Part shown: positions 3,809 to 56,737 of the stretch, in pieces
Layout of the letters: every line of letters starts with the position of its first letter
Position numbering within the stretch: position 1 is the first letter of the stretch
Assembly (NCBI GenBank): GCA_030248195.1
Contig: JASAND010011303.1
Coordinates: 1 to 64,000 of the forward strand
Origin: Trissonchulus latispiculum
Lineage: Eukaryota; Nematoda; Enoplea; Enoplida; Ironidae
Length of the DNA: 64,000 nt
Direction of reading: 5' to 3'
The notes under the pieces: model-generated
Told to the model about the DNA's origin: nothing
What the model saw: the letters and a program-made list of their open reading frames with translations, nothing else
The model's database searches: none
Program-made: the position numbers and the translations under genes

Positions 3809-4535
3809 AGTTGTTCCCGGGCCGTGTAACGGGCTCCGGGCCAGGGCCGGGCATGGGCCCGGACCCGTTAAAATTTTTAGGGCCCGCTACAAGGCCCAGG
3901 CCCGGTCACCGGGCCAAAAATAGGTTTTTCAAAAGCAAAATTGCTTTCTGAAGCCTCATCGGAGTATTATTTTATTACTACCGGGACAATTTAAAATTCC
4001 GCATATGTTTCCAAAATTCTCTCACGATTTTTCCCTACTTAAAGTATCTAGTCTGCGTCCCCACTATCGAACGATAGCCTTATCGGTGCACTTTAAAGTT
4101 TACTACAATGGTCCAATTTATCTTATGGAGCAAACGTTGAAATCATTTCATTAGCATAAGGGCTCTTTGAACTGAGACAAGCTATCGATTTTTGAGTTAG
4201 TCGTGGACTATTAGTAAATAAATGAAAAGTAGATGTCCTCCTCAAAAAGATCGAAAATGGTTTCAATTAAAATCGACAATGTTAATTTTCAAGTTATTGG
4301 TATTTAGCAAATGTGGAAGGAGACAGCGTAACTATGTATATATGTAACCATAATAAATGCAGTGTTATTCCTAAAATCACATATTATATACTTAGAATTG
4401 TATACAGACGACAAACTACGTTTTAGACCTTGTAGCGGGCCGCCGAGCCCGGGCCCCGGGCCGTGTAGTGGAGCCCGGCCCAGTTGTCCTCGTAGGCCCG
4501 GGCCCGGCTCGGAGAATTTCTTATCGGAACAACCC
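3809..4535. mobile_element. Non-autonomous hAT-like element with GGGCCC-rich ends
   Basis: About 727 bp. The left end reads AGTTGTTCCCGGGCCG and the right end finishes ATCGGAACAACCC, so the tips are inverted copies of GTTGTTCC. The flanks are TTGTATCA on the left and TAGTATCA on the right, an 8-bp target duplication with one mismatch, as expected for hAT. GGGCCCGGGCC tracts fill about 100 bp at each end, a known look of some hAT TIRs. The interior is AT-rich with no transposase frame. Confidence 0.65.
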
Positions 4536-4624
4536 TAGTATCATGATTTGGTTACACTGAGTCATGTTGCAAGAAGGACTTAAGGCTTCCTAAAATTCTA
4601 GATTGACGTAGCAATCCGATGCTA

Positions 4625-5511
4625 TGACTTCGAGCTTGGACTGGGATTATACTGGGAGTAAGGTAGGAGTGACTCAGCTAAATATTACAGAGAAGTATAT
4701 CGTTCAGTATAACTGACAGCGCTCGGTCGATGAAAGAAATACAAGATGTACAAAAAAGTGTAAAGACATAAAAAGGTAAACAAAACCAAAACACGTAGAA
4801 AAGCAAGAATTAAGTATGTCTAAAGCAGACTTGGAGTAGGCTCGGTGTTTACTCAGTGTTTACTTAGTGTTTACTTGGTGTTTACTCAGAGTGACTCGGA
4901 GCATGAAATTAGATATTACAAAGCATAGAAGGTTTTTTTCGAAAATTTGAAACAGGAAAGGATACAAATTAAATAGAAAACTCATACAAGGGCAGGCTCG
5001 GAGTAGGCCCAGGGATAGTTAGGACTGACTCAAGTACAAAAGCTGGGATAGTTTCGTTCGAAAAGTAACAAGTTAAGCTCATGGATGGCAGTTTACAATA
5101 TTAAAAAATTTTGGTGTATGCACGGAGTAAGACAGGAGTGATCAGACATGTGCAGGAGGAGAAATTCTGGGGGGGGGGGTGAGCCGTGTTTTTTTGCCCA
5201 AGTAACCGGAAAAATCCGGATTCTGGGAGGGGGGAGGTGAGGGACCTCTCTGGGGGTGGGGTTAAACCCCACCCAACCCCCCCCCAGCACAGGTATGGGA
5301 GTGACTCGATCACCCAAAAACATAGGGATGACTGGGGGATATGACTCGTAGTATGGCAGAGAGTTACTAGGTGTATGACTGGGTGTTTGTGTGGGCGTAC
5401 AGGATACATGAAAGAAACAAGTAGTATGACTGGGAGTATGACTGGCAGTATATGTGGGCGTACTAGTAGTGGGCTAGAGGTACTAGAGGTAGGATTTAAA
5501 AAACTATATAA
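4625..5511 (+). promoter_or_regulatory. Promoter-like region: repeated TGACT motifs leading to a TATA box
   Basis: TGACT occurs at least ten times on this strand (4625, 4670, 4892, 5026, 5302, 5329, 5342, 5376, 5427, 5439), several as TGACTCA or TGACTCG, the core of AP-1/bZIP sites. A TATATAAA box starts at 5505, and an initiator-like TCAGTC lies about 30 bp further on, before the ATG at 5615. The region also looks like a decayed tandem repeat, so some motif counts may follow from repetition alone. Confidence 0.4.
4845..4888 (+). repeat. Four tandem 11-bp units, each with a TGTTTAC site
   Basis: The unit GTGTTTACTYR repeats four times without gaps, at 4845, 4856, 4867 and 4878. TGTTTAC is the complement of GTAAACA, the consensus bound by FOXO/DAF-16 forkhead factors. 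The 11-bp period places the sites on nearly the same DNA face. Binding is inference. Confidence 0.6.
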
Positions 5512-5614
5512 ACGGTGAAAATTTCTATATCGCGTCAGTCTGGCTTGTTCTGTCGTCGCGAGTGGTCGGAGGAGCTCTGAAGTAATTAAACTCTGGAAGA
5601 TACAAGGAAATACG

Positions 5615-5888
5615 ATGAAAAGCTTTGTCTGTGAATTCTGTCAGAAAATGTTTACCCGGAGGTATAATCACACTAGACGATGTTAAGGAGAAGCGCGACG
5701 GGGAAAAGGCAACCTGTGAGAAATGTGGAAAGAGTTACAGTCAAGAAGACACTATAAAACCGATATATGCAAGCCCGTGCAAGAACCTGCTGCGTATCCA
5801 TACCAGCGTTGTACAAGTAAATTTATACAACTCTTTTGCACTTTTCCTATGTAAAGACTGTGCATATAAATCAGATAATCAGAACTGA
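5615..5888 (+). pseudogene. Broken C2H2-type zinc-finger gene
   Basis: The ATG at 5615 opens a 23-codon frame with CEFCQKMFTRRYNHTRRC, a C-x2-C finger that lacks part of the usual spacing before its His, and stops at 5686. A second finger-like segment, CEKCGKSYSQED, lies downstream in another frame (5730-5765). Together they look like two adjacent zinc fingers separated by small deletions. The TATA box and initiator upstream (5505-5540) fit a transcription start. A functional very short peptide cannot be excluded. No spliced model was found that restores both fingers. Confidence 0.4.
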
Positions 5889-19170: not shown

Positions 19171-20406
19171 TGTTTTTGTCGTGACTGTTGGTCCAAGGCG
19201 AGGCGGGGGCTTGAAGTGGATGGCTGTAAAGATGGTACGAAATTATTAGAATTTTGCAGGATGTCTACAAAACTTTGCAGCCATCCCCTTCAAGCGCTGG
19301 ATGCAATCTGTAAGCATGAGTTTTCCAACTCCATTTCTGGATCAAGCTGTATGTGCGTGTTTGTGTGTTAGTTCCAAGTTTTAGCTAGCAAACAAAGCGG
19401 GCGAATTTGCTTTGTTAACCAGAGCTTGATTTGCGGGAAAGGGGGTCAGTTTGTTTGTTCGCGTGCAGAGCATAGTTTTTGCAGTCAGACCCAGGCCCAG
19501 AAATTGAAATGTTGGAGCTGAAGTATGTGTAATGAACTGACTGACCTGGAGACTTCTTTTGCTTTCAAAATGATTGATTTAATATGATTTGCTATTAAAC
19601 CGTGTTGGCTTACTTTACTTGCTTAGGTCAGACAAGTTCTAATTACACAGAAGGTCGGCGCGTTTGCCTAGTTAGACAAACTTATGTACTAGATTCCCGA
19701 AAGGTGGTTTGCCAAAATCGGGGATCTCTACAGCCAACCTGGTTAGGGGTACTACTGTGAGTTCGTTTAGTCTATAAACAACAGCGAATGGCGAGAGGGG
19801 TCGATTCTCGCTCTATTTGTTCACTGCCGAAATCAAATAGAGGGCCTTGACACGCTGATCAGAGGCACAAACTTAGGTCTTCTCTTCTATGAGAGGTTCT
19901 AGTCAGATCTCTTGCAGAAATCTGGGAAAACTTACTGTTTATACGGAAGATCACAGCCGGATCTGTAGGTCACTGGTCCACAGTCTCGTGTAAACACTGC
20001 ACTCTGTTTAATGTTCTTACGACAATTACTGACAAACCGATTACTAGATAAAATAATGATAATAGCAATTTTAATATTGAAATAATATAATGAAGTGCTA
20101 AATACAAGTATATTGACAATTACTATTCACAGTCAATATACCAGAGTTGCCAGACTTTCTGTAGGGACGGTTTTGATTAATCTTAAATTAGCTTTACCCC
20201 AAATGGTATATGAGGTTACGCACGTTCAGCCAAGGACTAGACTCTTCTTCAGGTTACTGTAATTTCTCTACTCCGACGGTGATCCGATTCTATAAACTAA
20301 CTCACTTCAACTACTGGTGTCCTATGTGCTTTATGTGCGTGTTATGCTGGTGCACTCTCTCTTTATCTGTCCTTTACAGTACCAAAGGACCAAAAACCAA
20401 TATTAA

Positions 20407-20422
20407 TTAATAATAATAATAG

Positions 20423-20512
<90 letters not shown>
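20407..20512. repeat. (AAT)n microsatellite, about 105 bp
   Basis: Nearly pure AAT array inside the large element, about 270 bp from its left end. Confidence 0.95.
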
Positions 20513-20513
<1 letters not shown>

Positions 20514-23500
20514 AATTGAGGGTGGGCTCGGACTTTGGGTGAGCTCCCAGTTGCTGTAAAGTAGTCACAAGGACTCCACAGCCCACTTTAGAGATTGCTA
20601 TCGGAAAGGTTCCTGCAGATCAACTCCAGTTCAGGAGGATCAGACAATACATGGTTAGGAGAGGTTGGGGTGATGCTGATGGTGATGATTTAAAATTAAA
20701 CAATTAAGTTAAAGTTCTAATAAGTTTAGATCTGTCTTCTGTTGTTTCTTCTCCACTAATAGTTTCTTAAGATCAGATAGTAACTGAACTTTTAAAGCAG
20801 AGCAATGGGGATATCCACCCCCACTAGTGTAAGTAGAACGGAGATCATCATTTTCAATTAATTAGAAGTTGAAATAAGGTTGTAAGGTTCAAGATTACAA
20901 TGTTCGAGAATCAGGAGAAAACTTCCGGTTTACGGACAATTTCACAGTTTTACAATAGGTTTTAAACACCACAAATGATTCTGATGCCGGTACGAATTGT
21001 CTCTGCCTCAAAGATCCTGTTACACTTCCAAATAGACTAGATCACCTACAGCTAATAGATCCAACAATTGATTCCACTGATACGAATTGACTGAGCACTT
21101 CCGGCTCTCGAATACTGATTCCAATAGATTATTCACGAATATCTCTCCAGAGGCACGACAGACTAATTCAGGCAGGAGATCTTTCGACTTCGCACCTGAA
21201 TCAAATGGGTTAAAACCCATTAATGCATAGTTATGGTGCCGGAATCGAACCCAGCAACCATTATTCACTCTTTTGGCTTTCGGATCTTGAATATGAACTT
21301 GTGATATCGAAACTGTCAAAACGTTTAGAACTGGTCACATATTAGGCGGCATTTTGAATGTTTTGATGTTAGTTTCTAATTTTTAAGACTAATACGCAGA
21401 ATGTGATATTTCAGCCAATTTCCTGCAATGTGGTGCAGAAAATTGTGATTAAAGCATACTTCTGTAACATACATTCTGCTTCTGCACTGTCTTGAACTGT
21501 AATACTAAATTCAACTAATTTCGGTTTCTGACTGCGAGCAGGAGCCCGTTTCTTAGACCAATTGACGATTGCAGCAGTAAATTGTCTATTGAACAGAAAA
21601 GATGCTATAATTGCAGATCCAGATAGTTTAGGACGATTTCTGGTCCCAAACTGCAGGAAATTACCCATTTCCCGCATAACCGATTCATAACTTTGATATC
21701 GACATTAGATTGAAAATTCGTGCATAAACGTCAATTTTGCTGCTATTGGAAGATAGCCGGGTACATATTAATTATTAATCGTACGCAACTGATTAATCGT
21801 ATACATTATTCCTGGGTTACTATTTCCTTCTGCATATAGCTGTTCAAAGTGCTTGCTCATCCTTTATGTTTTAAACCACCTGTCAAAGCGCCATGCTTGC
21901 AGTAATGGATTTAGTTCCATTTTTATTGGTTTATAGACCATTTTTGTGGCCTAAACCTGACGGAAGTTAAAGTGTCAAACGCAATTCCGTCCCATTGAAT
22001 GATTTCAAGAACATAGTACTGACAAACATAAAGGTCGCAATATGGCTCATTCCAGACAGGAGCTACAGTAATCACAGATTTTAGCCAGAAATCATGTTAA
22101 CCACAGCAATCAATGCAACATTTTACCTAAAACTGACTTCTTACGTATACCTAGGTAAATTTGATAAAGAATGCAGGAGATTTTAATTTCGGACGAAATG
22201 ATGTCATTATTATGTAATTCGAATTTAAGTGCAGCGTCCTTTTGTTGCGATTTGTCCGCCCTATCTCGTAAAGCTGCCTATGCGGACGAACCGAGGACTT
22301 CCTGAGTATTATCTAATGATTATGACCTAATCCGGGGTCCCCGTGACCCTAGGACTAGATTCACTACCTCATTTGCATATTTTCACTCATGCTTTAATTA
22401 TGCTGTTTGTGACCACATTCCGACACACACTCCATCCAATCGGACTCACATACACCACTAACTAAATCTAGCTCCCAATTATGTAATTTCCTGTTTATTG
22501 TCTGATTCCTAGGTAGTTATTTTGTAATGCCCGTAACACCACGGGTACTGGAACAGAGAACACACACATACATACACAAACACCTATATTTTTTACCTCC
22601 GATTGCTTCATTTAGCATATAACCATCAATTCATTACAAACTTAGCTAAAAGCGCACATTCATCAATCATACACATCCATTAACGTAACATTCATACCGT
22701 GCCACTCCTGGCATACCTATGCAGCATTTATGCAACACTTACACCCACATACTAAATTGTGGGTATTCGGGTGCCTGCTAATCAAGTCACCCTTGATCCT
22801 GCCTAATATCTCAAGATCAATCACACCCGGCAAACCTCAAGACCCCTATCGCACAAAAGGAGTTTACATGAGTTGCCTCATTTATACACTCATTTTTACA
22901 CTTTCACACACACTAGTTTGATTTTTCGTTCTCACCCTTGCAGTTCTCACAACCTTCGTCAAACAGAAGGAGTTTACGTGATCTGCATCACAATGCAAAC
23001 ACACAAAATAGGCATTCACACACTTTCACGCACCTTCTTAACTAATACCTCCTAAATGCTGAAATAAAGCATAATTACTAAACATGACTATAATCACTTA
23101 AACAATCCCTAACTACAAACTTTTCCTATTTCTAATCTAAATTCTAGGTACTTCCCTAAACTACTGATTTATGCACATTCTTGAAACTTTCTCGTCGGAG
23201 TTGCTGTTTTATTTAACTTTTTGTAAACTCTGAGACTCGGGAACTCGAATTTTAGGAAAACCTCACGTTTTCCTCACTTAAAACAAAATTTGATGGAAAT
23301 TTGCGAAAGCCTGAGTGAATAATAATTGCCAAGCAATTATTGTTAAACAAGATTACAGAAAACATATTTTAATTTACTGATCGGAGGAAGCCGGCCATTC
23401 CTCCCCAAAACTCAGAACTATTAATCAACAGGATAATGTAAAGACTCAAGATTTTTGGATTCAGTTTGAGAATAACCTATATTTTAGAAGCCTAACAATT

Positions 23501-24227
23501 TTGAAGCCGACCTAACGCTGAAAATAAAGACAATTATACAAACAGTGATTATTGAATCATTAGCGCCTTCGTTAAAGAATACGGCCGGCAACACCTTGTT
23601 ACTGGCTGTGGGGTGAAAAGATCCTTAGAACTAGCTTAATAAAATTAGGGTCGTAATTAAGGGACCCTCTATCTCAGGCTCAAAAGGTGAGGTCCCCACT
23701 CAAATCCCGTAAACTACAAAACCCCTATAGCCACGAGGGCCTTCTTCACAATGCAAAACTGGCCTCTAGGGCCGTGGCTTGGAATGATAAAAAGTTGGCC
23801 CATTGGCCGCATAAAAAATGGGCCCTGAGGCCAAAAATCACACAATATAAAAAATAGGCCCGAAGGCAAACAGTGCAAAGTTCCTAATTCTGGCCTAGGC
23901 AGTAAGTATGAGCCGAACATAAGACACCCAATGGCTCCTCAGACTGTAGGTGTTCGCGGGTATAATCTCACATCCTTTTCTCGCCCGAAGGCCAGAAAAG
24001 TTCTTATATTTTTTCCTAAAAATTTATAGTGAGCGCGCAATCCTAGGTGCTGCAAACCACAGCCCACTATAAGGATGCGCACTCGGAGAAGAAACTTTGG
24101 CCGACCGCTCTCGGTCGGCCCTCAGCGACATTGAGTGAGTCTAAAATTTTGGGACTGGGCTGACAGCTCTCTGACAGCCCAGTGACAACACGATTCCGTC
24201 GGCAAAGCTTTGAATTTAAGGCAAAGC

Positions 24228-24255
24228 TTCTAGAAAGTTCTAGAACTTTCTAGAA
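24228..24255. promoter_or_regulatory. Six-unit heat-shock element array
   Basis: TTCTAGAA occurs three times with 2-bp spacers (24228, 24238, 24248). This makes six alternating TTC/GAA units at exact 5-bp spacing, the consensus bound by HSF trimers. It lies 108 bp from the palindrome at 24099-24120. A matching four-unit array lies in copy 2 of the element. HSF binding is inference from the motif. Confidence 0.7.
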
Positions 24256-25742
24256 GCTTGCCAACTTTAACATTGCAGGATCCAGGCTCATTTTGAGCCT
24301 GGTGGTCATCCAGGGGAAGATTAACGATAATGGCGAAATACTGCCCCCCAGCTGACCACTTTTCTGATTAATTTCGGGGCCCGAAACTTTCTAGAATTTT
24401 ATAAAATTTTGGTTAACATGTAAATGCAACCAAAGGGGGAAGTTTCGGATCTAATTTTCAACTTTCATGAATTCGACTGAAACGGGGCTCAAAAATTAAG
24501 CCAATCCCGGCCGATTATGGAAAAAATATTTTGAATTGCCTTTTTTAGGCACAATTTCTACGTCTGTTCTTAATTTCTTAATTTTCTTTGGCTTCTCTTG
24601 TCCTGGGTCCCTACTTTGAAATTTCAGGTAAACTTTTGGCCACAAACAAGAGAAGCCAACGCAGCAACCTTAGCAGCAATTGCTCCCTATTGCTAGAAAC
24701 TCAGTGTCCTCGCTCGACCGAGGAAGTAGGGAACAATTGCCTAAAAATGTGCATAAAAATTCGTACGTAATTTTCTAAGTAAAACTAACTACAATTCCTA
24801 ACTCTACGTATGTTATTACCTAAGACTACTAATTTTCATTAATTTTAAATTATTAAGGAGGAGGCTATGCCCCCTCCGGACGTGTACACAAAAAGTGTAT
24901 ACTAACTCTTCTCTGGAGAGGCAATTCTCTCCTGGCCTCTTGGCCCAAACTAGAGTTCAAGTGAGGACAAGCCCACGTAGAATAAATGAATGGACGTAGT
25001 TGTACTCCCACTACTACGCTGTCTGGGAGGTAGACGACTTCCCAGACAATGAAAAAGGGAGTTTCCCAAAGTTAACACAAAGGTGGGTGGGTACCAAGTT
25101 TTGAGGTAAACCTTTTAAAGAGGTAAAATTACGGAATTAGAAGTAATCTTATTAAAACATTTTCATTAATAACTCACTCATTTTTGAGAGTTAGAAGGTG
25201 GGGATTGCATTTTTGAAATCAGGAGAAAATAGCCTTTCCAATGAACCCGAGTTGTTTTCTAACCAAAAATTATTAAAATTAATAATTAAGGCCTAATTAC
25301 TACTAATTAACTCATACAAACACTAGCTAACTAATAATATATTCATTTTATGCTATATAACTAAATAATTTATTGCCTTAAAACTGCACTTTAGAGAATT
25401 TCTACAATCGTAAACACAATTTTGTGTGATTCTTTTCTGCAATTAGAAACTAAAATTGCTTTGGCACGGGTTTCTTAACTACCATGGATTACAATATTAC
25501 TGAAAAGGTCCCATCCCGGACCAATTCCAAATCAAAGAAGAATATCTCCTGCCAATTCACTCTGATCAATAAATTCTTTGGCTGAGTTATTAATTGCGGG
25601 CGTGCGTACTGCTATTCTTAGTATTTTAGATGGTGAGATATTCCTATTACGCGATTGATTGAGTCTACTTCTATTATTAGTTTAACCTTTTGGGGTAGAG
25701 ACCGGAATATTAATTATTGGTTTTAGTCTGGCAACTCTGATA

Positions 25743-26880
25743 TTTTCTTTCCAATACAAAATATCTTTACAAATATGAACTTGGACATTTGATTCTGGCA
25801 AATATGATGAAACATGTGAAACATAATAATCTCCAATTGACCGGACCTCAGCACATTCCTTCTAACTTGATAAATAATTTCAACCAACTTTGACCATTAA
25901 TGAAAGCCTTTTCATTACATATGTGCTAGGCTGGGCAGGACGACGTCATTTAAAATTTTCGTGCTCGGCTGCGAGATAATGCCCATGTAACAACCTGATA
26001 TATTTCTTACTTAAAATTGTTGATAAATGTGTTAAGTACCGGCTTACTGTCCGGTGACTAAACCGGCACTTAAATGGCGAAACGATTGCTGGTTTTTACA
26101 GTCGCCCTCAAGGGTGCAACTCGCTCATGAATTAAATTAGTAAACCCTACTTCCTAAAAGAAAAGATAAAGGCCATGGATTTACTGTTACGGTTCTAACG
26201 GTTACGGTTTTACTGGAGCGAAATATTGGAAATCATTTAGCAGTAAAGGCAATCATAATCATAATAATATATAAGGTCTACAGGCCGACCGAACAGTAAC
26301 GCCGATCAACAACAACTAAACAAGATTCCCTGTCTAGCTGTCTAGACAATGATTGATTTCTTCAAGGCCAGCGCAGTTACACAACAGTAACAAACTTAGC
26401 ATTAATGTTTGCATCATTTGCATAAAGTTTAAGGAAGCGTTGAGTACCGAAATTACTGGTTTTTAATAAATGTACTTACCATATGATGGTGCTTTGGCAT
26501 TTGACCTCTATTGTGCTTTTGTCCGTTTTGCTTTTATCCTTTGATCTTTTTGTATTGTGCTCACAGTGGTGGCACTATGGTCCATATGTGGCGCAACTGG
26601 CAACAGATAGCAGTTGGGTAGCTCCTGACACACCGAAAGACCGTACCGACCGAAAAACGTAAGTATAACCGGCCAATTAATTGTTGGGGGAACTGTCGCA
26701 CGAATGGATAACGCACCGGCCACAGAAGAATACAAGCTGGAGGGAGCCTCGCCAAACCCGTAGGTTAATATAAATATGCCTAACAATCTACCTTCTAAAA
26801 GCAGCAAACTAACTAGAATATGTATTACAGAAATACAGCATAGTAATACAGACAGACAGACTAAGCATAAGCCTCCAAAT
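25743..26880. other. Stretch without a supported gene; possible LTR relic near 26.6-27.4 kb
   Basis: Sequence near 26640-27320 resembles the 880-bp LTR-like insertion at 57 kb in layout (a GGCCAAT segment, GGAGCCTCGCC, a CTCCCAACTC block on the minus strand). The similarity is patchy and no LTR boundaries could be set. Confidence 0.25.
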
Positions 26881-29970: not shown

Positions 29971-29975
29971 AAAAG

Positions 29976-31632
29976 ATGTGTGATTCAGGGGAACACGAGG
30001 TTCCCGAAAATACTAATTCTGATGGGGAAAGTACTAAAAGTGAAAGCGCAGAAAACCAAGCGCTTAGCAAATTGACTGAAACTTTGACTGAATTGGCGTG
30101 GCTGCCCGTGACGAGCTCATGGCGTGGCTGCAGCATACAGTTCGATGAACATGTCGAGCACTATGAGCGGTTCTGCCAGATTATGAGTTTCGATGAGGGG
30201 CAGACTATTTTCTTTTCCAGTTCTTTGCGTGGAAGAGCCCTAAAGTTATTTCGGTCGGTACCAAAAGCTTGTCGGGGTACCTGGGAAGAGTTGGTCACGG
30301 CTGCTAAAAAGGTGATGACCCCTCCTCACACCGCTCTGCATGCCTCTTCTCTAATGTTTCAAGTTATGCAAGAAAAGGGAGAAACTGTTACGGATTATTT
30401 TAAGCGTTTAAACCGCTATGCTAGGTTGAGTTTTAAGGAGGAAGATGGTTTTAGTGACCAACAACTTGAGCTCTTAAAATTACGATTGTTTTTGTTTGGT
30501 TTGCGTAACGATCTGAAAGTTCGGGTACCGCCTGGCTGTAAGACTCTGGAACGTGCGGTTGAAAAGACCCTACAGGCCAAGGTAGAATATACAGGCGAGG
30601 CCTACCCTTCTTTTCTTGAGCCGAATTTTATGAGCGAAAAAATGCTCCACCTGCCATCGCAGAAACAGAAAAAGCCATGAAAGATTTGAAAATTCGTTTT
30701 GAAAAGTTAGAGACTGAAACGGCCAAGTAGTTGAATGGCCCCAGCCGCAGTGACCGTGGCCGAGAACTACCGCCGGCACCACTTGTTTCAATTGCAACAA
30801 ACCGGGGCATGTTCGTAGGGAATGCCGACAGCCTGGCGGAGGAGCTTACAGGGGGGGAAATCAAAATTCTGACCGAAATTACAACCGAAATTCAGGCGGA
30901 AACCGAGATTTCAGGAATTCGGGAGGAAATGGAAATTACTCCAACCGAAACGCCAATCATAGGAAGTTTTCGAATCACAACGGTACTGGAAATTGGCGTG
31001 ACAATCGCGGAAATTACTCTGAACGTCGGGAGAACCCGCAGCAGTCAAATTATCGGTCTAATCGAGATTCTTGGGGTGAACGTCGAGAGCAGCGGCGGGA
31101 TTGGGATCGGCGAGATCCCACAGATCGGATGCCTTCCGAGATGAAAAGGGAATACGCTCCAAAATTCAAGGTGACGCGATCAAAATTGCAAAGAGGAGAG
31201 CAAGATTGGGAGGGCACCCGCCGGCATCCCCGAAGATCTGGTAACTCGGACTCTAGTGGCAGTGACCGACCCTCCGACCGGTCGCATGGAAACCGGCAGA
31301 ATCGCTGTAGCTCCGATTCAGAATCATATTATTCAGACCATTATTCTGTGCGGTCCGTGAGACATGCATCTCGGAACTGTATGATGCATGCTAAGCGCTG
31401 CCTTGTTTCGCCCCACTTTGAGCACAAAGTAATGATGTGTAGACAGCCGTTGGTGTGCACTTGTCCAGGCACCACATATGAACCAAGAAACTTTTCTCCT
31501 GAGCGTTCACTGAGCTTGAGTTCTGTAACCTCCACAGAGGAGGAACTTTTCATTCCTGTGTCTGCTCGGCAGGCACGTCGACAAGAGGAGGTCCGTCCGT
31601 CTCTCCCGAGAGGGAGATTGGTAATATGTTAG
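29976..31632 (+). pseudogene. gag of a Gypsy-type retroelement, interrupted
   Basis: An intact 234-codon frame (29976-30680) has an acidic N-terminus, then a retrotransposon capsid-like region with the typical W..F..RL..YARL helices. About 100 bp downstream and in another frame lies a CCHC zinc knuckle (C-F-N-C-x4-H-x4-C at 30784-30825). It is followed by an Asn/Arg/Gly-rich, nucleic-acid-binding-like tail that stays open through 31632. At least two frame changes (near 30640 and 30730-30755) and an in-frame TAG separate the parts. An A6 run at the first shift could be a slippage site or a mutation. Protease, reverse transcriptase and integrase are absent, so an internal deletion is likely. 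The region 31129-31632 may be a chimeric tail. Confidence 0.65.
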
Positions 31633-41300: not shown

Positions 41301-44300
41301 TCAGCTGTTATTCCTATGTTGGATATTATCATGAGAGAGCACAAACTGTATCCATTGGCTCAGGATGTGAATACAAAGGAACTGCAGCTCATGAAATGAT
41401 GCACGCTCTTGGCTTCGATCACGAACAAAATCGACCCGACCGCGACCAATATGTCGAAATTCATTTGGAAAATGTGGAACGAGGTACTGTATCAGATTAT
41501 GTTGTACAGTCAAACAGCAAAGAAAAGTACAAATGTACATTCTTTCTTCACTATCGCAGAAAACTGATAAATATGAAGCAATGAAATGGCAATTTTCAAG
41601 CACTGCAAATTAAAACATTGCAGTTATAACAGCATTTTGTAATGCAAAGAATCAGTAGGTATCAATGATCGTTGTATTTTAATCAAGCTGTAGTTTCCCC
41701 ACAAGAAACAAGAACCGTGAGTGTTTTTGTTTGATCTATCGAAGAACTTAAATGTAACCTAAAGTCTGATTTTTGTACAAGAGAAGTTATCAACTATTAT
41801 AAAAGACTTGTTGCACTTCAACTTAGGAATGGAAGGAAATTTCGAAAAATGCCGTGACTGTACAACACAAAGCCTTCCATACGATTATAGCAGGTACCGG
41901 TTTAATGTCTCCTGAGCTCGTATCTAATTATGGTATATATTAAACCACAGAGCTTCTCAATTGGTTCACCCAGTTGCTCTAACTTCACAAAAACCAAACA
42001 CCGAAAATGGGTTCAATCGCTCGCTAGCCCGGGTTAACTCTATGTATTACAGATGCAAATAAAGCAGCAAATAAATAAATAATAAAGCTCTTGCCTCATT
42101 GGTCTAATTTAATTTCCACTGTAAATGGTGATTATATTTCAGCGTAATGCATTACGGCGACGATTATTTTTCACGAAACGGACGAGCCACAATTGTGCCA
42201 AAACAATCAAAGTATTACGCATATTGTTGCTAGATATAAATATCAGATGATTGATATTGATATATGCATTAATTAATACGTTAATATAATTATTTATTAA
42301 TTTAAGTAGTCATCAAGATTGGACCATGTACGTACATATACAGTGATTTTCCAGGCACTGAAACTGAAACTGAAACTAGGTTTTAGGTTGTACAGGTTTC
42401 AATTTTAGGAACTGAAACTAAAACTTAAACTCAAACTATTTTGGGAAGAGACCTAAAACTGAAATTGAAACAGAGATTGTTTTAGGCCGCCGACTGAAAT
42501 AGAAACTGAAACTATAAATTGTTAATGAAACAACACTATATATGCATATATTGTTCAGCGTTTGATAGTGGATCTTAATAACATTAGTGTTTTGTTTCCA
42601 GTGCACGCATAGGTCAGCGTGAAGGTTTAACGGAAATGGATTTCAAAAAGATTAACACTCTTTATGCTTGCGGTAAGATGTCAATCCGATTAGTTAGGAC
42701 TGGGGTCATCAAAACGTTGCTGTGTCGGAGACTGATTTTAATAATATGTGAGAGTAATACTGAGAAAGTCATATGCAAGAGTGCCGACCGATTGTGAGAC
42801 ACTTCGCCACACTATTGTTCTGATTCGGTACTTGACCTTTGACTTAAATATTAGGAAAGGTTTTGAAGAAGTCTTGTATAAATCTTAAAATTCTGAGTTG
42901 TTTTGAACTCCTACTTTGATTCCTTCTTTGTTGGTTGAGATTGAGTAGATTGAGTAGCCGCGTCGTGTTTTATCAAGTGGCGCACTGGTGTAGCTGTTAA
43001 TCTGGGTTTTTCATATTACCCATGGCAAACTACTTAGGCACTTTGGACAGTTTCAGCCCAGAAACTGAACGCTGGACATCCTATACTGATCGTTTAAATC
43101 AGTTTTTCGTCGCCAACGATGTGGTGGATGACAATAAGAAAAAAGCTATTTTTCTCACAGCGGTTGGAGCAACTACTTATGCAATTTTGGAAAACTTAGT
43201 TGCTCCAAGGAAGCCATATGATTTCGATTTGGCGGAGCTTCAAGAAAAGCTTCGAAACCACTTTGAGCCTACGCCGTTGAAAATGACTGAACGTTACAAG
43301 TTTTATCATCGAAAGCAGTTGGATGGTGAGAGTGTAACTGACTTTTTGGCGGAGCTAAGGAGTCTTTCCGCAAAATGCCAATTCGGGGACTTTCTAGAGG
43401 AAATCTTATGTGACATTTTTGTGTTTGGGTTACGGAATCAAGCCATCATGAAGAGACTCTTGGCTGAAAAGAATCTCACCGCACAACGTGCATACGACTT
43501 TGCCAAGACAATGGAATTTTCTGAAAAGGGTACGACGGAGATTCAAAGCAAAAGCCTTACCGTTAATGCCATAAAGCAGCAAACAAGGAACCTGAAATCC
43601 TCAGAATTTGCCAGACAATCGCCGTCCAATTGTTACCGGTGTAACGGAACGGGACATTGGTCAAACAATTGCAGATATAAAGAGTATTTATGCCACAACT
43701 GCGGCAAGAAAGGTCATCTGGCTTTCGCCTGCAAAGCCCAACAGAGAGCTCCTGCAGCCAAGAAAGATTTCAGAAAAGTTCCTGCTTCTGTAAAGAAACC
43801 TCAGAGAAATTATTGGATACATGAATCCGATGATAAAGAACTGTCTGAAGACGACGAAGACGAAAGCCCCATTTACCATATATTCTCTGTGCATTCGCGA
43901 TCGACACCGCTCACGGCAGATTGCCACATTAACGGTGTCAAAATCAATATGCAAATTGATACCGGGGCAGCTGTGACGATACTGCCTTATCGACTAATTA
44001 AGTCGAGGCTGCCTGGCCTTCAAATGCGCAATACCAACGTTCGGCTGAAAGGATACAACGGCCATAACATTCCTGTTTCTGGGGAGGCTGTCGTCAATGT
44101 TTTGTACAATGGTCAGCAGTATGACAATATGCATGTTGTAATTACGAAGGATAGTAAAGGCCCGCCCCTGCTAGGGAGAAATTGGCTACAGAAGATCAAA
44201 CTAAATTGGGCAGACATCAATTTGGTTCGTGATCGTACGGCAGATGAGAATTTTCTAAAATCCCGTATCTCTGCTTTATGCCAGGAATTTAAGGAGCTGT

Positions 44301-47300
44301 TCACGCCCGGTTTGGGTAAAGTCAAAGGAGAACCTGCCAAAATACGGGTTCATCCAGATTCCAAGCCGAAGTTTTTTCGCAGCAGACCCATACCTTTTCC
44401 ATGAAGAAAGGTGTTGAGGAATCAATAGAGATATCCAAGACGGTATTTTGGAGAAGATTAACGTTTCTAGCTGGGCCTCACCCATTGTGCCGGTACCCAA
44501 GCCTTCTGGGGAAGTGCGCGTTTGCGCTGACTTTAAGGTTACCATAAATAAAGACTTAGAAATTGATCAACACCCAATCCCAAACCCCGAAGAATTGTTT
44601 CAAGTCCTACTGCAAGGCAAAAGATTCAGCAAACTGGACTTAGATTCAGATTCCTCTTTGGAGCAAGCAAGATTCCTTACCTTGATCTTGCTATTGACGG
44701 GAACGGTATTCGACCACTGGATAATAAGATTCAAGCCATTGACAAGATTCCGCCACCTGAATCAGTCCATGACTTGAAAGTGTTTCTAGGAAAGATCAAT
44801 TTCTATGCATCTATGATTGAAAATCTAGCCGTCATAGCAACGCCTCTATACAATTTACTGAAGAAAGAAACAAAATGGAATTGGACAGAAGCTTGTCAGA
44901 AAAGCTTTGAAGAACTTAAAGAAAAGTTGAATCAAAAGCCAATCAGAGTTCCTTACGATCCGAATAAAGAGGTGGTTCTGGCGTGTGATGACTCCTCTTT
45001 CGGTGTTAGCGCCGTTCTTTCTCATCGTTACAAGGACGGTTCTGAACATCTGATTTCAGCAGCCTCAAAGGCGCTTAATGCTCAAGAACAAAAAGTCGCC
45101 CAAATCGAAAAAGAAGCCTACGCCATCGTTTTCGGCCTGAAGAAGTTTTACCCATACTTGTTTGGAAGGAAATTCATCTTAGTCACCGATCATCAGCCTT
45201 TGGTTAAAATATTTGGTCCTTACAACGGAGTCCCGGCCTATGCAGCAAACCGCCTGCAGCGATGGGCACTCATTCTGTCAGGGTTTCATTATTCTATTGA
45301 ATACCGCAGATCAAGGGATCATGGGAATGCTGATTGTCTTTCTCGTTTTCCATTACCGATTTCCAATGACGCCCCGTGCGACTTAGTTGTGGAAGAAATA
45401 AATGTGATTCATAACGACAACCTCTCGCATCTTCCGATTACTACCGACGAAATCGCTACTGCAACAGCTGATGACGACATTCTAGTCAAAGTGCTGCACT
45501 ATGTCAAAACTGGTTGGCCTCCGAAGTTGCCGAAAACGGAAAAATTTTTATTGCCCTATTTCACCCGAAAAAAAGATTTGTCGATTACCAATGACTGCCT
45601 GTTTTGGAGGGATCGAGTGGTGATTCCAAAGTGTCTACGTTCCTCCGTTCTATCTGAACTACATAGCGGTCATCCTGGCGTTTCACGCAGTCATTCATTA
45701 GCTCGACGTTTTGTCTGGTGGGATGGCATATCCTTGGATATTGCTGCTCAAGTTGGTTCCTGCCAGGCATGCAATGATTATAAAGATAATCCCAAGTCCG
45801 TCGCCAAACAGAGCTTTTGGCCACCAGCAGCCCTTACATGGGACAGGGTTCATATAGATTTTCTTTGTCCGTTCAAGAAGAAGTTGTGGTTTGTCTTGGT
45901 TGACGCTTCTTCCGGTTGGCCAGAAATTTATCCGGTCAATGATGTTTCAACAGGCCACACCTTGAAATGTTTAAAAGAAATCTTTGCCCGGTTTAGAATT
46001 CCAAAAGTTCTGGTTTCTGACAATGGTTCCGCTTTTGTCTCCAGCACTTTCGATTCCTTTTGCCAGAAGAATGGTATCAAGCATTTCCTATCCCCTCCCT
46101 ACCACACCAACTCTAATGGGTTGGCTGAGCGCATGGTGCGCACGTTCAAAAGTTTTATGCGCCGGGCTGGCAACGATCCATCCGCGCTTCCAAAGTTCTT
46201 GTTGTCCTACAGAACCACTCCCAACCCATCTACTAACAAAAGCCCCGCCGACGTTTTAATGAATTATCCGGTGCGAACTCGTCTGTCCCTAGTCAAGTCT
46301 TTCCCGCCACTGAAAGAAGAAGAGGGTCCTAAGGCTAATTTTAACATCGGGGACAGAGTGTGGGACCAAGATGGATAGCTGGAACAGTTCGTGGTCTAAA
46401 AGGGAACCTGATGTGCTCAGTACGGGTAGCATCTGGTACCTGGGTACGTCATGTGGATCAACTTCGAAGGCGCCTGCTAGAGAAGACCAGCGTTGACGCC
46501 TGGGACGATTGGTTTTGGGACACAGAGGCTGACCGTGCGCCGGCACGCCGAGTAGAACAGGATCATGCTCAGGAAGAAGAACCGGATATAGCGCCTCCGC
46601 TTCGCAATTTGCGTCCTAGGGAGGCGCTCCGGTGTCCGGAAAGATTTGATCTAATATCAGGACAATTTCACAGACCGGACCGGCCTGTGCAATCGTAAAA
46701 GAACAAAAGTCCATCCTGATTGAAGGAAAGGGGAAAATGAAGAAGTCTTGTATAAATCTTAAAATTCTGAGTTGTTTTGAACTCCTACTTTGATTCCTTC
46801 TTTGTTGGTTGAGATTGAGTAGATTGAGTAGCCGCGTCGTGTTTTATCAGGTTTTAACTGTAATAATGAAAGAGGGGGCAACAGCTATGAAATGTTAAGT
46901 ATTTGTTAGTGAGTTTATTGTTTGTTGTTTTTATTTCGGTAAAGTTTTTATAAAATGTTAATAATATCTAAATATTAGTTAAGACTAAAATTTCATTTGC
47001 ACTGATTTAAATTAAAAAATTTTCTTTAATTTCGTAATAAGCAATATGTGTTTTGAGTTAAAGATAGGAAAGAGTTTGCAGGCGAAATTTATAATTTCAG
47101 ATTGAAACTAAGCTAAAATAAGGCTATGCTTTTTATAGTTAACATTGCTATATAAGTGTTGGAGTACAATAAAAAACCATATTGGTCAAAACTTTATTGC
47201 TGTAGTTTATCAAAATTGTCTCACGTTTAATACGTAGTTTGTCCTGCCCCCTCCCTTTCCTTCTCGTTTCTAATTAAGTGTAAAGGGCATTCCCTTTCGC

Positions 47301-50171: not shown

Positions 50172-50883
50172 GTGCTTCCTAAACTGCGGCCCGGCCCGGC
50201 CCAAATTGCCTAAAATGCGGCCCCATGTTAGATTTTAAAAATACACTAGAATTGGATTTTTGGGCCGCAAACAGCCTAAAGTGCGGCCCTAGGCCGCAAA
50301 CTTCCTGAACTGCGGCCCGTCATCCTTGGCCGCAGTTCAGGAAGTTTGCGGCCTAGGGCCTAAACTGCAACCCGAACTGTTTCTGGGCCGCAAAATGCCT
50401 AAAATGCGGCCCGCACTGTCTTTGGGCTGCAAAATGCCTAAACTGCGGACCGAACTGTTTTTGGGCCGCAAACTCCCTAAGCTGCGGCCCGAACTGTCTT
50501 TGGGCCGGAAAATGCCTAAAATGCGGCCAGAACTGTCTTTGGGCCGCACCGCAAGCTGCCTAAAATGCGGCTCCAACATTTTGTTTCCTGCTGGGGGGGG
50601 CATAGTTTGGGGATTAGGGGTATCTTCCCAACTTATTTGGCCAGATCCTCCATATTTGGTGACATACCCTCCCCCCAAGTCTCCGCTACCCCCTCGAACT
50701 CCCTCCTCAGCCCTTTTTGGAGCTAACAACTAAATAAAGTTGGCTAAAAAGTAGTAATGTTTTGAAAATAACTGAGTAAGAGTAAAAGAAGAACCACGAC
50801 AAGACTCAGTGTTCTTCCTAATTTCAATGCATTTCTGCGCTGGAATCTTTTGAAAACTGATGTCAACTTTTTGTCAAGCAAAA
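50172..50883 (+). repeat. GCGGCCC tandem-repeat element, copy 1
   Basis: Starts GCTTCCTAAACTGCGGCCC and contains at least six degenerate units of about 45 bp built from GCGGCCCGAACTGTTTTTGG and GCCGCAAAATGCCTAAA. A C-rich block (50640-50730) and a 150-bp tail ending at TCAAGCAAAAG follow. The copy at 56.74-58.34 kb is inverted. The Lys/Arg-rich open frames across the array are products of the repeat. Confidence 0.7.
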
Positions 50884-52593
50884 GGTGGGTCAAAAAATGA
50901 TAGTAAGTTCTATTCTTCACATAAATCAGCAATATGTAATGGAAAAAGCTAAGTGAAACTCAAAAATGACAGAGCAAGCTCAGTTTGTTATCGATTGTGA
51001 TTCTCGATCGAATTGTTTGATGCCTTGATTATGAGTGATGTGCCTGTAAGATCCTAACGTGACCAATGAAACGTCCAAGCAAATGTATGAAAATATTTGT
51101 CATTTAACTACCAGAGTTGCCAGTCAGTCTAAAACACTCAGAAATTCACAATTCGGGACATAGGTTCTAGCGCAAATAGGAGAATAATGTTAGAAGTAGC
51201 ACTATGACCCACTCAAATGACGCAAAACGGAATAGAACTTCAGCAGAATGCAGCTTGATAAGTGTTAAGTAGGTTACCAATTAATAATGGAGGGGTCGTT
51301 ACCCTTCCCGGGTCAGTAATAGGCCCTATCATTGCTCTTATTGCATAATGGAGGAGTCGGTACTCTTCCCAGGCCACGAATAAGGCCTCTCGTTGTCCAG
51401 AAGCTCTTCAAAATTCGATTACAACAGCTTGAAATTATCAAAGAAAATGGGTGCAAAGAAAGATGTTGCGAAATAACCAGTAATTTAACCGGAGAATTCG
51501 AGTTTAAAACGTTTTTACATTGTCAGTAAGCGCAAATATTGGAAGATGGGTTAATAAATGGTCATAATTTGCTCGTTAATAGCACAGGATAACGTTAATT
51601 TGTGTTAGTAAGTGTTCTTAGGCACAAACTGCAATAATTAGGTAGTAATTAGTTAAATTGTGAGATTTTTAACAAAAATACACGTTAGGCTTATCTGAAA
51701 AGCAATTCTTTTCTGATTCCGAAAATCCAAACCCGGTCTTTTAACTCCCAATATTGCGAAAGATATAAGTAAAAGAAGTTTTGACTAGTTCCGTTTTAAT
51801 TTCGTAATATTGGCCTTTTTGTGACCTTTATATTAACAAGGCGTAACAATTGCGTGTGGTTACGCCCATTCATGTTTTCATTCATTCCATTGAGCCTCTG
51901 TTGGCTCTCTTCCAGCAAAGACTTGCCTCGCAGAGAAAGAGTTAGTATACACCTTTAGGTATAGTAATACGGACGGAGGAGGGCTTAACTCCCTCCCAAA
52001 TAAATAAAATACAATGAAATTGGTCAGTCTTAGGTAGTTTCGTACGTAGAATAATAATATTTGATTTTTAGTTTACAGAAAAATACGTAATTCCTTGTAT
52101 GCACATTTTTTGCGCAACAATTGCCCTCTTGAGTCACTTACTGGAAACATAGAAGTTCCAGCGAGGGAGAGCAATTGTTGCTAGGATTAACGAGCGGCTT
52201 CTCTTGTCTTCGGCTGAAAGGTCATGCCCAACAGGAAAGAAAGGGTCTTGGAAACAAGGAAACGCTCCAATATAATAAATACAAAATTCATTAAATAATT
52301 TAGTCAAGTTAGCACTTAATATTTGGTTTTTTATAATCGGCCCCGAGAGGCCTTCATTTTGTACAATTTTGTTTTCCAATTCACGAAAACTAATTTTTAA
52401 GTCAACAATTTCCCTTTTGGTTACCTTTACTTGTTAACCAGAACGTCTGCAAAGTTTCCTAAAATTCAGCTTGGGAAATTCATCAAAAAGGGGTCAGTTG
52501 GAGGGTCATAATTCCTTTTTCTCATTAATCTCCCCTCCAACCGACCAGCCGCCTCGCCAGCCCGCGTCGGGCACACGCTTTAAGATAGGGAGC

Positions 52594-52611
52594 TTCCAGA
52601 AAATTCTGGAA
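52594..52611. promoter_or_regulatory. Four-unit heat-shock element in the large element, copy 2
   Basis: TTC, GAA, TTC and GAA at exact 5-bp spacing, 105 bp from the palindrome at 52716-52729. Copy 1 has six units 108 bp from its own palindrome. The spacing and triplets are kept although the intervening bases differ between copies. Confidence 0.65.
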
Positions 52612-54519
52612 GCTCCACCCAAAGTCAAAGGAAATCCGACAAAGGCAGTGAGCTGTCAGACTCCTGTCAGCTCACTGGAAATTTCAAAAACTTAGTCAGT
52701 GTTCGTCTGAGTTTTGGCCGAGAGCGGCCGTGTTTCCTCTCTTCAGCAGTGCACTTTCCCGTTGTACCAACGATTTGGCCGGGAATAAAAAGTGCACTTA
52801 GGACACGAGTTAGGGCCTCTTCTGACCCACACAGGTCAGAAGGGATGAGCTGAGCTTACACGACGAACACCACACGTTGAGGGCCATATGAGCGCATTAT
52901 GGTCGGCAGATTCGCACAATTAGGAACGCATTGTTAGGAACTTTCAGGAGGCCCTTTTGGCTTATTTTTCTTCCTTTATTCGCCTTTGGGCCACAATTTT
53001 AATCAGCGAATTGGAACCAAGCCACGGTCTAGTTGGCCCTAATTTTTAGGAGGGGCTTTATGCCCAATTTTTACCTTTTTCTCATTTTTCGGGGTTTTGT
53101 AGAAGAATTGGGATTTTTGAGTGGGGACCCTCCCCTGAGCTGAGTTTAGGAGGTCCCTTGGTTACGGCCTCAAATTAGATCTGAGCTAAATTAGGGATTA
53201 ATTCTCCCCACAGCCGGCTTAGGAATTGCCGGCCGTAATTGCAGAAATAGGCGCTATTGAAGCAAAATATATCGTCTGTAATTGTAAATCGTAGTTTTGT
53301 GTAGGTCGGCTACCAAACTTAATAGGAATTAAAACCTGAATCGCTTTTAACTATTAATTATCAGGTTGTTTTAGGGGGAATGGCCGGCTTCCCCGAAGTT
53401 AATTTAATAAAATAAAACTGTCCTTAGCGGAACTTGTGTGTGTGGTTTTGTTTTCTAATAATAGTTGCCTGAGCAATTATTACTCGGTTTGCTTTCCAAG
53501 AGGTTGTCAAAGTTCCAAAATTCGTAGTCTCTGTCAAACTTACAAAGTTCATGAATTTCAAAATAAAAACGGAAGTTAGTCAATGTCAGAATTAGAACAA
53601 AAATGTGCATACAATAAGTAGTTAAGTTTTGTTAAGGAGTAGCTAGGATTTGTTGTGCTTGTATAAATTGTACGAGTAAATGTTGACGTGATTGCAATCG
53701 TGTGAATGTGATCCCCAAATTTACGTAAGCGGCTCCTTGGGTAAACCCCTCTTGAGTTGCGAGGTTCCAAGAGTAGCCCCATTTCGAGAGTGTGATTTAT
53801 AGACCGAAATTGGGTAGTTGTGAGTGTGAATGAGGGCATACCATGTAAACCCCCTTTTTGTCTGATAAGGGTCTTGGGACTGCCAGAATGAATGGGTAAA
53901 TATTCAGATACTAGGCAGGAATTGGGCCAAGTTGAGTAGCAATTTGGCCCCTAACTGTAAATAATTAGGGTTCATTCAAAACTTGGCTGCTAGTTTGACG
54001 CGAAAAGGCTGCTTTTGGAATGAATGTTGTGCGAATTCTGCAAGGAAACGGTGGGCTGTTCTGTGGTTTAGAATGGGTTTGCAGCCTAGGGTCACGGGGA
54101 CCCCGAATTAGGACTGTAAATATGTTGGGTTTCCGGTCATCCGTGTAGGTAGCCCTGCGATTAGGGGACGGATGAGCCGCATTCATGGAATCCAGGACCA
54201 GCCAAATCAGAACTATAACAGGAGTAAGGCACAAAACAGCATGGTGTTCGCTGCAATTCAGTATTAGTAGTAGTAGCGAGTAGCGGACTAATAGGTCATC
54301 TAGTTTTAATCTAGAAACTAATGCTAGTTTTGTTGTGTTGGTAACTTGTTAGTCGGATAGTGTCTAGTCGGTGTAGTTAGTTCCGGCTAAGGATAAGCGT
54401 ATTATTTGTCTTAGTTAAAACGGTTATTGTTTCGCAACGTCGAATACTCAAAATCAAGCCAGTTGTAATGCCAGTTTAAAATGGCAAAAGAATAAACCAA
54501 ACTAAAAGAAAAGAAATAA

Positions 54520-54591
54520 ACCCGTGCTGAGACTTGAACTCAGGGCCTTCGGCGGCCTGGGCCGATGCTCATCCATTGAGCCACAACGGGT
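54520..54591 (-). repeat. tRNA-like sequence inside large element copy 2
   Basis: On the minus strand: acceptor ACCCGT/ACGGGT, D arm GCTC/GAGC, anticodon stem TCGGC/GCCGA with loop CCAGGCC, and T arm CTGAG/CTCAG with loop TTCAAGT. The D arm is offset by one base and position 33 is C rather than T, so a working tRNA (the anticodon would be AGG, Pro) is unlikely. It is read as a tRNA-derived sequence or pseudogene. Confidence 0.5.
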
Positions 54592-55962
54592 TATGATTAG
54601 AACTAGTTCCAGCTAGCTTATGTACCGTAGCAATTTGGCAACCCAGCACGTGTGCGTTTGAGCTAATGCACTATATGTACAAATTACGCATATGTGGACA
54701 CAAACTTTGATAACGATTTTCTCTTCAACAGCTGAACGGTTTGATCTGTTTCGAAAAGGAAAATGTTCAACTCTTCAAACTCTACAAAATGATATAATTT
54801 TTACCCATTTGGCCCATTTGGTGACAAGAAGTTACTAGAAGCGGTTAACATTGTCAGAAAGGCAATAACCAACAATTTTGAGTCATTTCGTCAATTTACG
54901 AGCTCAAATGGGGCCCAAAATGCACATTTTGGGCCTGGCAAGCAAAAGAACGAGTAATGGTTGCTGGGTTCGATTCCCGCACCATAATTTTGTACTAATG
55001 GGTTTTAACCCATTTGATTCAGGTGCGCGGATCGTCTCCAGTTCGGAATCAGAGTCAGTGAGCTAGTCAGACTTGGATCAGTCAGTGGAAGTGCTTAATC
55101 CAGGAGCTTTGGTCAGAATCAGTATTGTTGGTAGATTATTGGATCCGGAAGTGATCCCAGATTTGGATTATCAGTCAGACTTATGTGGAGCCTAGTCACT
55201 GTAGGTACCTTGTGGTCTTAGAGCATAACTAAGGTCGAAATCAGAGACGAATCCTGCCGGCGCTTGACATCAATTGGGCAAACTGTAGAGAGGAATTTAG
55301 CATTCAAAAAATCACTCGCTAATTCGATTCGGAAAATGTACAACCTTATCCAGTTCAACCTTTTCACCTCCGGGGCTCAGTCCCCTTTGTCTCTGGCTTG
55401 AGCTTAGGTAGCAGCCAGAAGTTCATAGTATCTTGATAACGGAAGAGCTCGAAGAAGAACTATCTCTCGAACTTTGTATTTCGTGTTAAATTTCATTAAT
55501 CAGAAATAAGTAAGGCAGAACCAGGAATTCCCCCGTTTCATTACTTCCTCAAAAGGACATTTCCGTACAGTAACCCTGTCTAGGTGTTGGAGCGGACCTT
55601 CAGGAAAGCAGTGTCCAACATTCGGGGACTCACCCATAGTCCGACCCCAGGTTTATCTTAGTAAATATTTGCTGATTTGTAGTTTTATTGATTTGTAGTT
55701 TGGTAATCCGTTTTGTAAGGACGGATAAAGAGTCGCACAGCACAAGCATATAGGCGCACGATAAAGCATATAGGTGCTAAGTAGCAGAGTATCGGAGACA
55801 GTGTAATAATTAGGTAACTGATACCAAGTTAGAGAAAGAGAAGAAGAAGAGGTACCGCTAAAGCTAAAACTTGTCCCTAAAACACATATAAACTGGGTAA
55901 TATTATCCTAAATTAGGATCATATTAATAGACTGCTAAAGACGGTAACTGGCAACTCTGGTA

Positions 55963-56160
55963 CAGTAACTGAACACTGTACTGAACGGTATTTGTATCTG
56001 TTTTTGCACAGCTTGTAACGATCCCTAGTAATAACGCTTGTTGTATATTAATTGTCATAATTTTAGAGTGTACCTATCATAATTGTATTAATCCTAATAA
56101 ATAGCTGGCGTGTCAAACTCAGAATCTTAGTGTTGTGTAAAGTGGCGCGATTGTCTTCTG
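55963..56160 (+). repeat. LTR-like end with TGGCGC primer-binding site
   Basis: AATAAA near 56097 and a terminal segment are followed by AGTGGCGCGATTG near 56144, matching the start of the primer-binding sites at 42976 and 33051. The large element at 51.1-56.0 kb may have inserted into this LTR. No gag follows, only about 370 bp of leader-like sequence. Confidence 0.35.
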
Positions 56161-56529
56161 AAACCAGGCGCGATTGCCATACAAAGAATCCATCACAAGA
56201 ATTGGATCAGGACTGATCAAGGTAAGTTCTGTTCAGAGATTGGAGGATTCATCATCAATCCGGCGATCAAGTCAAAGCAAGTGCTGACCCTTCCTGCTGA
56301 TCTGCTGGAAACCAGTGCATCAAACGAACTCACAGCGAAGACCCCGACAAAGGTTGGCCGCAGGGAATCTCTGATTTTGGAACACCACCTTTCGGAGATC
56401 CGGTGCCTAAGTCTGCTTCGATAAGTGGACGTGCTAACCTTCCGTGTGATCAAGTCTAAAGTGGATCGAGATTCAGATCTCACTGACTTCATTACAAATA
56501 TCATTTGATCAAAATTTTGCTGTATTCAA

Positions 56530-56632: not shown

Positions 56633-56737
56633 CTGCAGATTCTAGCGTTGAGACATACTATAATGCATAAATTTATGGTTATTTATACAACTTCCACTGC
56701 AGAGTATTAACGAAAAAACCGCTTATGAAAAAAACTT

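Follow-up and report, generated by a model that had tools for sequence, protein, structure and literature searches.

Heat-Shock Element Arrays in a Repeat Family, Most Likely of Giant LTRs, in the Nematode Trissonchulus latispiculum

Introduction

Is the long run of alternating TTC and GAA triplets at 24228–24255 of contig JASAND010011303.1 (Trissonchulus latispiculum, assembly GCA_030248195.1) a binding site for heat shock factor (HSF) that a mobile element has kept for its own use, or does it merely resemble one? The window in which it was found is the first 64,000 nt of that contig, and a second array of the same kind lies about 28 kb away in a related, inverted repeat copy. Transposons carrying heat-shock elements (HSEs) are already known in plants and in Caenorhabditis, and the Trissonchulus family would add a case from another genome. 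The plant element ONSEN belongs to the Copia class and has its HSEs in the LTR. Also named ATCOPIA78, it is described as a heat-activated LTR retrotransposon of Arabidopsis (for example PMC3907296). The Helitrons of Caenorhabditis, according to PMC6927752, carry tandem, overlapping HSEs that make up a large share of the HSEs in a genome.

Two HSE Arrays in the Window

A scan of the 64 kb for arrays of at least three alternating nTTCn/nGAAn units at 5-bp spacing, the sequence criterion for an HSE, returned two, of six and four units.

24228..24255, no strand: six-unit HSE array of copy 1 (motif scan, other copies)
52594..52611, no strand: four-unit HSE array of copy 2, in opposite orientation to copy 1 (motif scan, other copies)

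A first-pass annotation of the window had described six and four units at exact 5-bp spacing, lying 108 and 105 bp from a GGCC-flanked palindrome, with the triplets kept and the spacers differing between the copies, and all of this agrees with the scan, the coordinates and both copies. The palindrome at 24099–24120 ends 108 bp ahead of array 1, and its counterpart in copy 2 (52716–52729) starts 105 bp from array 2. Both arrays double as palindrome arms, within a perfect palindrome of 36 bp in copy 1 and in 13-bp arms in copy 2.

Chance or base composition can be ruled out as their source. In 60 third-order Markov sequences the mean number of three-unit arrays was 0.93 and that of four-unit arrays 0.033, and longer arrays did not occur; the analytic expectation for a six-unit array is 1e-5 to 3e-5 per 64 kb. 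Across the genome there are 1185 perfect six-unit arrays, compared with none in the reversed control and an analytic expectation of 0.13–0.3.

The Carrier Repeat and Its Class

Each array lies within a discrete insertion, the limits of which are as follows.

19528..25919, minus strand (likely sense): copy 1 of the element, 6392 bp and non-coding, a probable solo giant LTR (ends common to other copies)
19524..19527, no strand: target duplication TATG of copy 1 (end comparison)
25920..25923, no strand: target duplication TATG of copy 1 (end comparison)
50935..56496, plus strand (likely sense): copy 2 of the element, 5562 bp, in inverse orientation to copy 1 (ends, AATA duplication, colinear patches with copy 1)
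50931..50934, no strand: target duplication AATA of copy 2 (end comparison)
56497..56500, no strand: target duplication AATA of copy 2 (end comparison)

Both copies start with TGTAATG and end with CATTACA, their termini form an inverted repeat of 9 bp, and a 4-bp target duplication flanks each of them. Among other copies with both ends read, matching duplications are present in p0 (AATA), p2 (AATG), p8 (AATA) and p9 (TATT), and absent from p3 and p6. The right end was seen in 14 of 20 further stretches of the copy 1 type (10 with exact CATTACA, four with one difference) and was not found in the other six. In ten stretches of the copy 2 type it reads CATTACA in eight and CATTAGA in one; none of the ten left ends was found at the guessed places, so that the target duplications of this subfamily rest on copy 2 of the window. 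Copy 1 has four stop-to-stop open reading frames (ORFs) of at least 75 aa, the longest of 104 aa, none with a Pfam match, and copy 2 has eight (longest 127 aa), with no Pfam match for the six that were scanned. The two copies align in patches only, and so they are old sister subfamilies within a single family of non-coding repeats.

A Helitron leaves its target site unduplicated and has 5' TC and 3' CTRR ends, unlike the Trissonchulus unit with its CATTACA ends. Given the TG..CA termini and the 4-bp duplications, the latter seen in copies 1 and 2 as well as in p0, p2, p8 and p9, Helitron identity was ruled out. The comparison with Helitrons in the first-pass annotation thus holds for the HSE motif but fails for the element itself.

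The TG..CA ends and a duplication length within 4–6 bp are those of an LTR element, and further signs lie outside the unit. Among 30 right flanks, those of p6 and C635 (L110) share the junction ACCTCCACAARTAA, directly outside CATTACA/CATTAGA, plus similar letters beyond it; the other 28 have no common junction. Read on the opposite strand, this is the purine-rich TTAYTTGTGGAGGT, directly before TGTAATG or a one-letter variant, and the polypurine tract of an LTR retrotransposon lies directly before the LTR. The two copies concerned belong to different subfamilies, one being of the copy 1 type and the other of the copy 2 type. Beyond p6, on the minus strand, is a gag domain (Retrotrans_gag, E 2.5e-07, over the cut-off) accompanied by a weak zinc knuckle (E 0.003, below it), and the missing target duplication at p6 is as expected of the 3' LTR of a larger element. 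This is the one gag-bearing neighbour, and it is from this gag that the minus strand is taken as the likely sense strand of copy 1. The stretch beyond p6, near the polypurine-like junction, also has a 68% match to a stretch beside p1 that holds ORFs for an aspartyl protease and a NADAR-domain protein. Neither window copy has a direct terminal repeat inside it, and no pol, primer site, intact LTR pair or complete element was seen. A purine-rich stretch left of p3 was considered as an LTR junction and rejected, being G/T-rich at length and probably misassembled.

A non-autonomous DNA transposon bounded by short terminal inverted repeats, its palindromes serving as sites for a transposase or other protein, would account for the 9-bp inverted repeat, the 4-bp duplications and the 28 of 30 right flanks without a common junction. 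Such ends and duplications are also common to LTRs, however, and this identity appears quite improbable when set against a polypurine-like junction common to a copy of each subfamily, the gag beyond one of them, a hairpin block that lies some 1.6 kb inside the nearer end, and the lack of any transposase among the ORFs scanned, in a family surveyed in part. The polypurine-like junction and the gag beside p6 make a giant LTR the most probable identity of the repeat unit, which would occur mostly as solo copies and be read from the strand opposite to copy 1. The likeness to ONSEN that had been proposed at first therefore fits better than that to Helitrons, given gag and a polypurine-like tract by one copy.

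The NADAR-domain ORF beside p1 (L011:1730–3193, minus strand; L022, about 3853–5783) may be part of the full retroelement.

A Conserved Row of Inverted Repeats

The array of copy 1 forms part of a row of six inverted repeats of about 330 bp (24031–24358), absent from the first-pass annotation, which we designate K, A, B, C (containing the array), D and E; those of copy 2 follow in identical order (52798–52492).

24031..24084, no strand: inverted repeat K, copy 1 (24031–24044 with 24072–24084; two-sided changes)
24099..24120, no strand: inverted repeat A, copy 1, GGCC-flanked with a CTCT loop (pairing across rows)
24154..24183, no strand: inverted repeat B, copy 1, two CTGACAG copies with an A.A mismatch kept (pairing across rows)
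24224..24259, no strand: inverted repeat C, copy 1, 36-bp perfect palindrome enclosing the array (sequence comparison)
24282..24302, no strand: inverted repeat D, copy 1 (pairing across rows)
24303..24358, no strand: inverted repeat E, copy 1, whose counterpart in other subfamilies served as the array-blind anchor (pairing, genome scan)
52748..52798, no strand: inverted repeat K, copy 2 (two-sided changes at two pairs among 40 copies)
52716..52729, no strand: inverted repeat A, copy 2 (pairing)
52646..52678, no strand: inverted repeat B, copy 2 (pairing)
52589..52616, no strand: inverted repeat C, copy 2, 13-bp arms (pairing across copies)
52560..52572, no strand: inverted repeat D, copy 2, the weakest, with 92.5% of cells paired (pairing across copies)
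52492..52546, no strand: inverted repeat E, copy 2 (pairing)

Read in the likely sense direction, D and E come before the array, and B, A and K after it. Such a row invites the explanation that the array is just one stem of a conserved multi-hairpin retroelement RNA, such as a leader, packaging or dimerisation signal, that its HSE appearance comes from palindromy, and that HSF is not involved. Much of the structural evidence is what this would predict. Besides the six consecutive inverted repeats in both copies, the fold z-scores of the row are −7.2 and −6.5, the minimum for copy 1 falling within the row, and in 40 copies the stems vary at 3.3% of positions compared with 9.3% for unpaired positions. 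In K, 7 of the 13 pairs have changed on both sides (14 distinct sequences), and the covariation score, the two-sided cells and the percentage paired are above all 500 shuffles and the slid controls, although the count of two-sided pairs was reached in 91 of the 500 and further pair types fell below the shuffles. Across 21 diverged rows, two-sided changes were counted at 6 pairs of A, 3 of B and 3 of C (12/37); this total was reached in 41 of 500 shuffles and the covariation score in none. Helix A is 68.9% paired in these rows, its outer pairs being mostly unpaired. The spacers of C also co-vary (AG/CT, GT/AC, AC/GT). Among 40 copies of the copy 2 type, two-sided changes are found at just two pairs, both in K, and RNAalifold detected none in 40 near copies. 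Rfam gave nothing at gathering level except a tRNA, with otherwise weak matches below it, and a comparison by eye of G.U and A.C changes gave no clear answer as to the transcribed strand.

Several features of the array itself are not those of a simple stem. Its innermost triplets are separated by just 2 nt, too short a loop for a hairpin, yet they hardly vary; its length differs by 10 bp between six- and four-unit copies; arrays of the same design adjoin host HSP70 genes (see below); and in 6 of 10 six-unit copies, chosen blind to the array, the spacers are incompletely Watson–Crick complementary with all triplets intact. On balance we regard an exclusively structural role as unlikely. Pairing and HSF binding are in any case compatible, HSE arrays being inherently palindromic.

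Outside the row, a second structured stretch is present in copy 1 at 24801–25100 (z −5.0 and −3.7), and copy 2 has single structured windows at 52101 (z −4.2) and 51801 (z −2.3).

Conservation of the Arrays across the Genome

Two sets of related copies were assembled from the best-scoring 40 of 1432 (copy 1 type) and 40 of 926 (copy 2 type) first-look candidates; 35 of the former were analysed and five left out. Six units are present in 31 of the 35 rows of the copy 1 type, the remaining four having 7, 5, 4 and 3, and four units in 36 of the 40 rows of the copy 2 type, with three units in two and five units in two. To avoid circularity, a further sample was anchored on stem E (828 places, none in the control), and the first 43 places in list order were taken, 23 being matched by coordinates to the genome list of six-unit arrays and 20 read directly. 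These carry six units in 33 cases, four in eight, three in one and two in one. Copies without the triplets at this position, named at the outset as the result that would speak against the idea, are thus rare: 41 of the 43 retain four or more perfect units there. At the level of sequence, the family does spread HSF-type sites, as had been proposed.

From the start of the array to repeat E the distance is 113–114 bp in six-unit copies and 103–104 bp in four-unit copies, a single step of 10 bp. One four-unit copy (L154, 104 bp to E) is a six-unit array minus one spacer base. Among 11 array-blind places that were read, one has four perfect units and ten have six, and in these ten no triplet letter departs from the majority (0/180) compared with 19 of 100 spacer letters. 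Invariant triplets together with drifting, partly non-complementary spacers are what selection for an HSF site would predict.

In the larger sets the contrast is less uniform. Triplets of the copy 2 type (n = 40) vary in 2 of 480 cells (0.4%) compared with 7.1% for the block and with 11 of 560 (2.0%) for the other arm positions of the same stem (p 0.03); stem B varies equally little (6/1040, p 1.0). In the copy 1 type, 3 of 630 triplet cells vary, which is unexceptional, as the triplet mask is matched by 17% of offsets. Another 20 places were selected because their spacers are non-canonical (the first 50 contain 24 such places), a choice that fixed the number of units at six. Each of them aligns to copy 1, copy 2 or both, in most cases with about 70–85% identity; a near-duplicate, L129, was omitted from alignment A4.

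The number of arrays, more than 3000-fold over the Markov expectation, could also be read as a sign that the copies are mainly HSF sinks or enhancers of host genes, kept by selection on the host. It is very hard to credit, as numerous insertions at unrelated sites retain the array, and selection on the element explains this more simply.

Host HSF and HSP70 Genes

The host genome has eight matches over the cut-off to the HSF DNA-binding domain, and 82 matches to HSP70. Perfect arrays are present in two of seven stretches adjoining HSP70 matches, L170 (6, 3 and 3 units) and L171 (5 units); the other five have no array of at least three units, and several of these start at internal exons, so that their promoters may lie outside. 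The six-unit array of L170 adjoins TATTTAAGG and is followed by an apparent leader intron and an ATG with an HSP70-like start (read by eye). Among the matches listed, L170 and L171 have only short, motif-sized pieces in common with the element.

Proposed Role of the Array

Taken together, the sequence comparisons lead us to put the probability at roughly two in three that selection has kept the array as a binding site for HSF, located in the regulatory core of a giant LTR whose copies are mostly solo. This is argued by the discrete insertions with 4-bp target duplications, by triplets that stay in register across diverged subfamilies as their spacers drift, by the host HSF genes and the arrays of the same design adjoining HSP70, by compensatory change in the neighbouring inverted repeats, and by the polypurine-like junction and gag. 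Against it stand a weak TATA signal, triplets that are not clearly better kept than other stems in the copy 1 type and no better than stem B in the copy 2 type, HSP70 arrays in just two of seven stretches, a single gag-bearing neighbour, and the fact that no primer site or intact LTR pair was seen. As to the TATA signal, TATA[AT]A occurs 130–190 bp off on the plus side in 5 of 18 scored members (those of 20 loci with the CTGACAG condition), with no clear conserved TATA box, and in 12 of 21 rows a loose motif of the TTAAA type lies about 7–13 bp past the array on the likely sense side, too weak for a TATA box.

From the array, the host HSF and the LTR junction, which are facts of the sequence, we infer binding, transcription and mobility. 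Under stress, HSF would bind the array, and the bound array would drive transcription on the strand opposite to copy 1. The repeats B, A and K, being downstream on the sense strand, could then form the leader of the transcript. The element would in this way act as an HSF-responsive LTR promoter or enhancer, like a heat-activated LTR retrotransposon of the ONSEN kind, and its solo copies would bring strong HSF sites to new places. A fuller scenario, which we put forward as speculative, is that a giant LTR took up a perfected, HSP70-type HSF array in a conserved row of inverted repeats, that heat switches the element on with a leader folded by the downstream repeats, and that the mostly solo copies supply most of the strongest HSF-type sites of the genome and may serve as a genome-wide sink for HSF or rewire the response to heat.

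Giant LTR retroelements and LARD-type elements have very long LTRs or long non-coding units and a high copy number, and the Trissonchulus family, a long non-coding unit of high copy number, resembles them by description only; we know of no HSE arrays in such elements. Unlike ONSEN, a Copia element, the unit is 5.6–6.4 kb long and mostly solitary, has Retrotrans_gag beside one copy, and carries its four- or six-unit arrays among successive inverted repeats. Shared with ONSEN are LTR-type ends with HSF-type sites and the proposed use of the host heat response for the element's own transcription. With the Caenorhabditis Helitrons it shares transposon-borne HSEs in tandem, overlapping order, as described in PMC6927752, that make up a large share of the HSEs in a genome. 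Among the open-licence papers listed, we recognised none that describes HSE arrays and a conserved row of hairpins in one element.

The family is of interest as one repeat spreading around a thousand perfect arrays of six units in a genome where arrays of the same design lie beside HSP70. Its natural series, of four and six units and many spacer variants, makes the grammar of HSF sites and the effects of transposons on the heat response measurable, and the hairpin row, itself conserved, offers an independent way into the working of a very long LTR.

Other Features of the Window and Related Copies

An 85-bp block (21191–21275, 54943–55027) is 91% identical between the otherwise diverged copies 1 and 2. 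It reads as tRNA T-arm-like, with a B-box-like GGTTCGATTCC adjoining a palindrome; as a primer site it was rejected, its spacing being a misfit to a normal tRNA 3' end (reasoned). A tRNA-Pro(AGG)-like sequence lies inside copy 2 (54518–54592, minus strand). ARAGORN detected no tRNA-Pro in 19 stretches around ten copies of the copy 1 type; it reported four tandem tRNA-Thr (L010), one tRNA-Thr (L021) and a doubtful tRNA (L014). An ORF with two TBP repeats is present at L021:471–1169, with 31–33% identity to the three relatives found.

Copy 2 sits in a large inverted-repeat element (50258–58282), the arms of which have 39-bp GGCCGCA-rich tandem repeats. Elsewhere in the window are a Gypsy retrotransposon with K02A2.6-like relatives (42864–46852), between 115-bp direct repeats that are 99% identical, another gag at 29973–30680 and a zinc knuckle at 30754–31632. 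The end of the window (63836–64000) is occupied by an 81-bp inverted repeat, 93% complementary, with a 3-bp gap.
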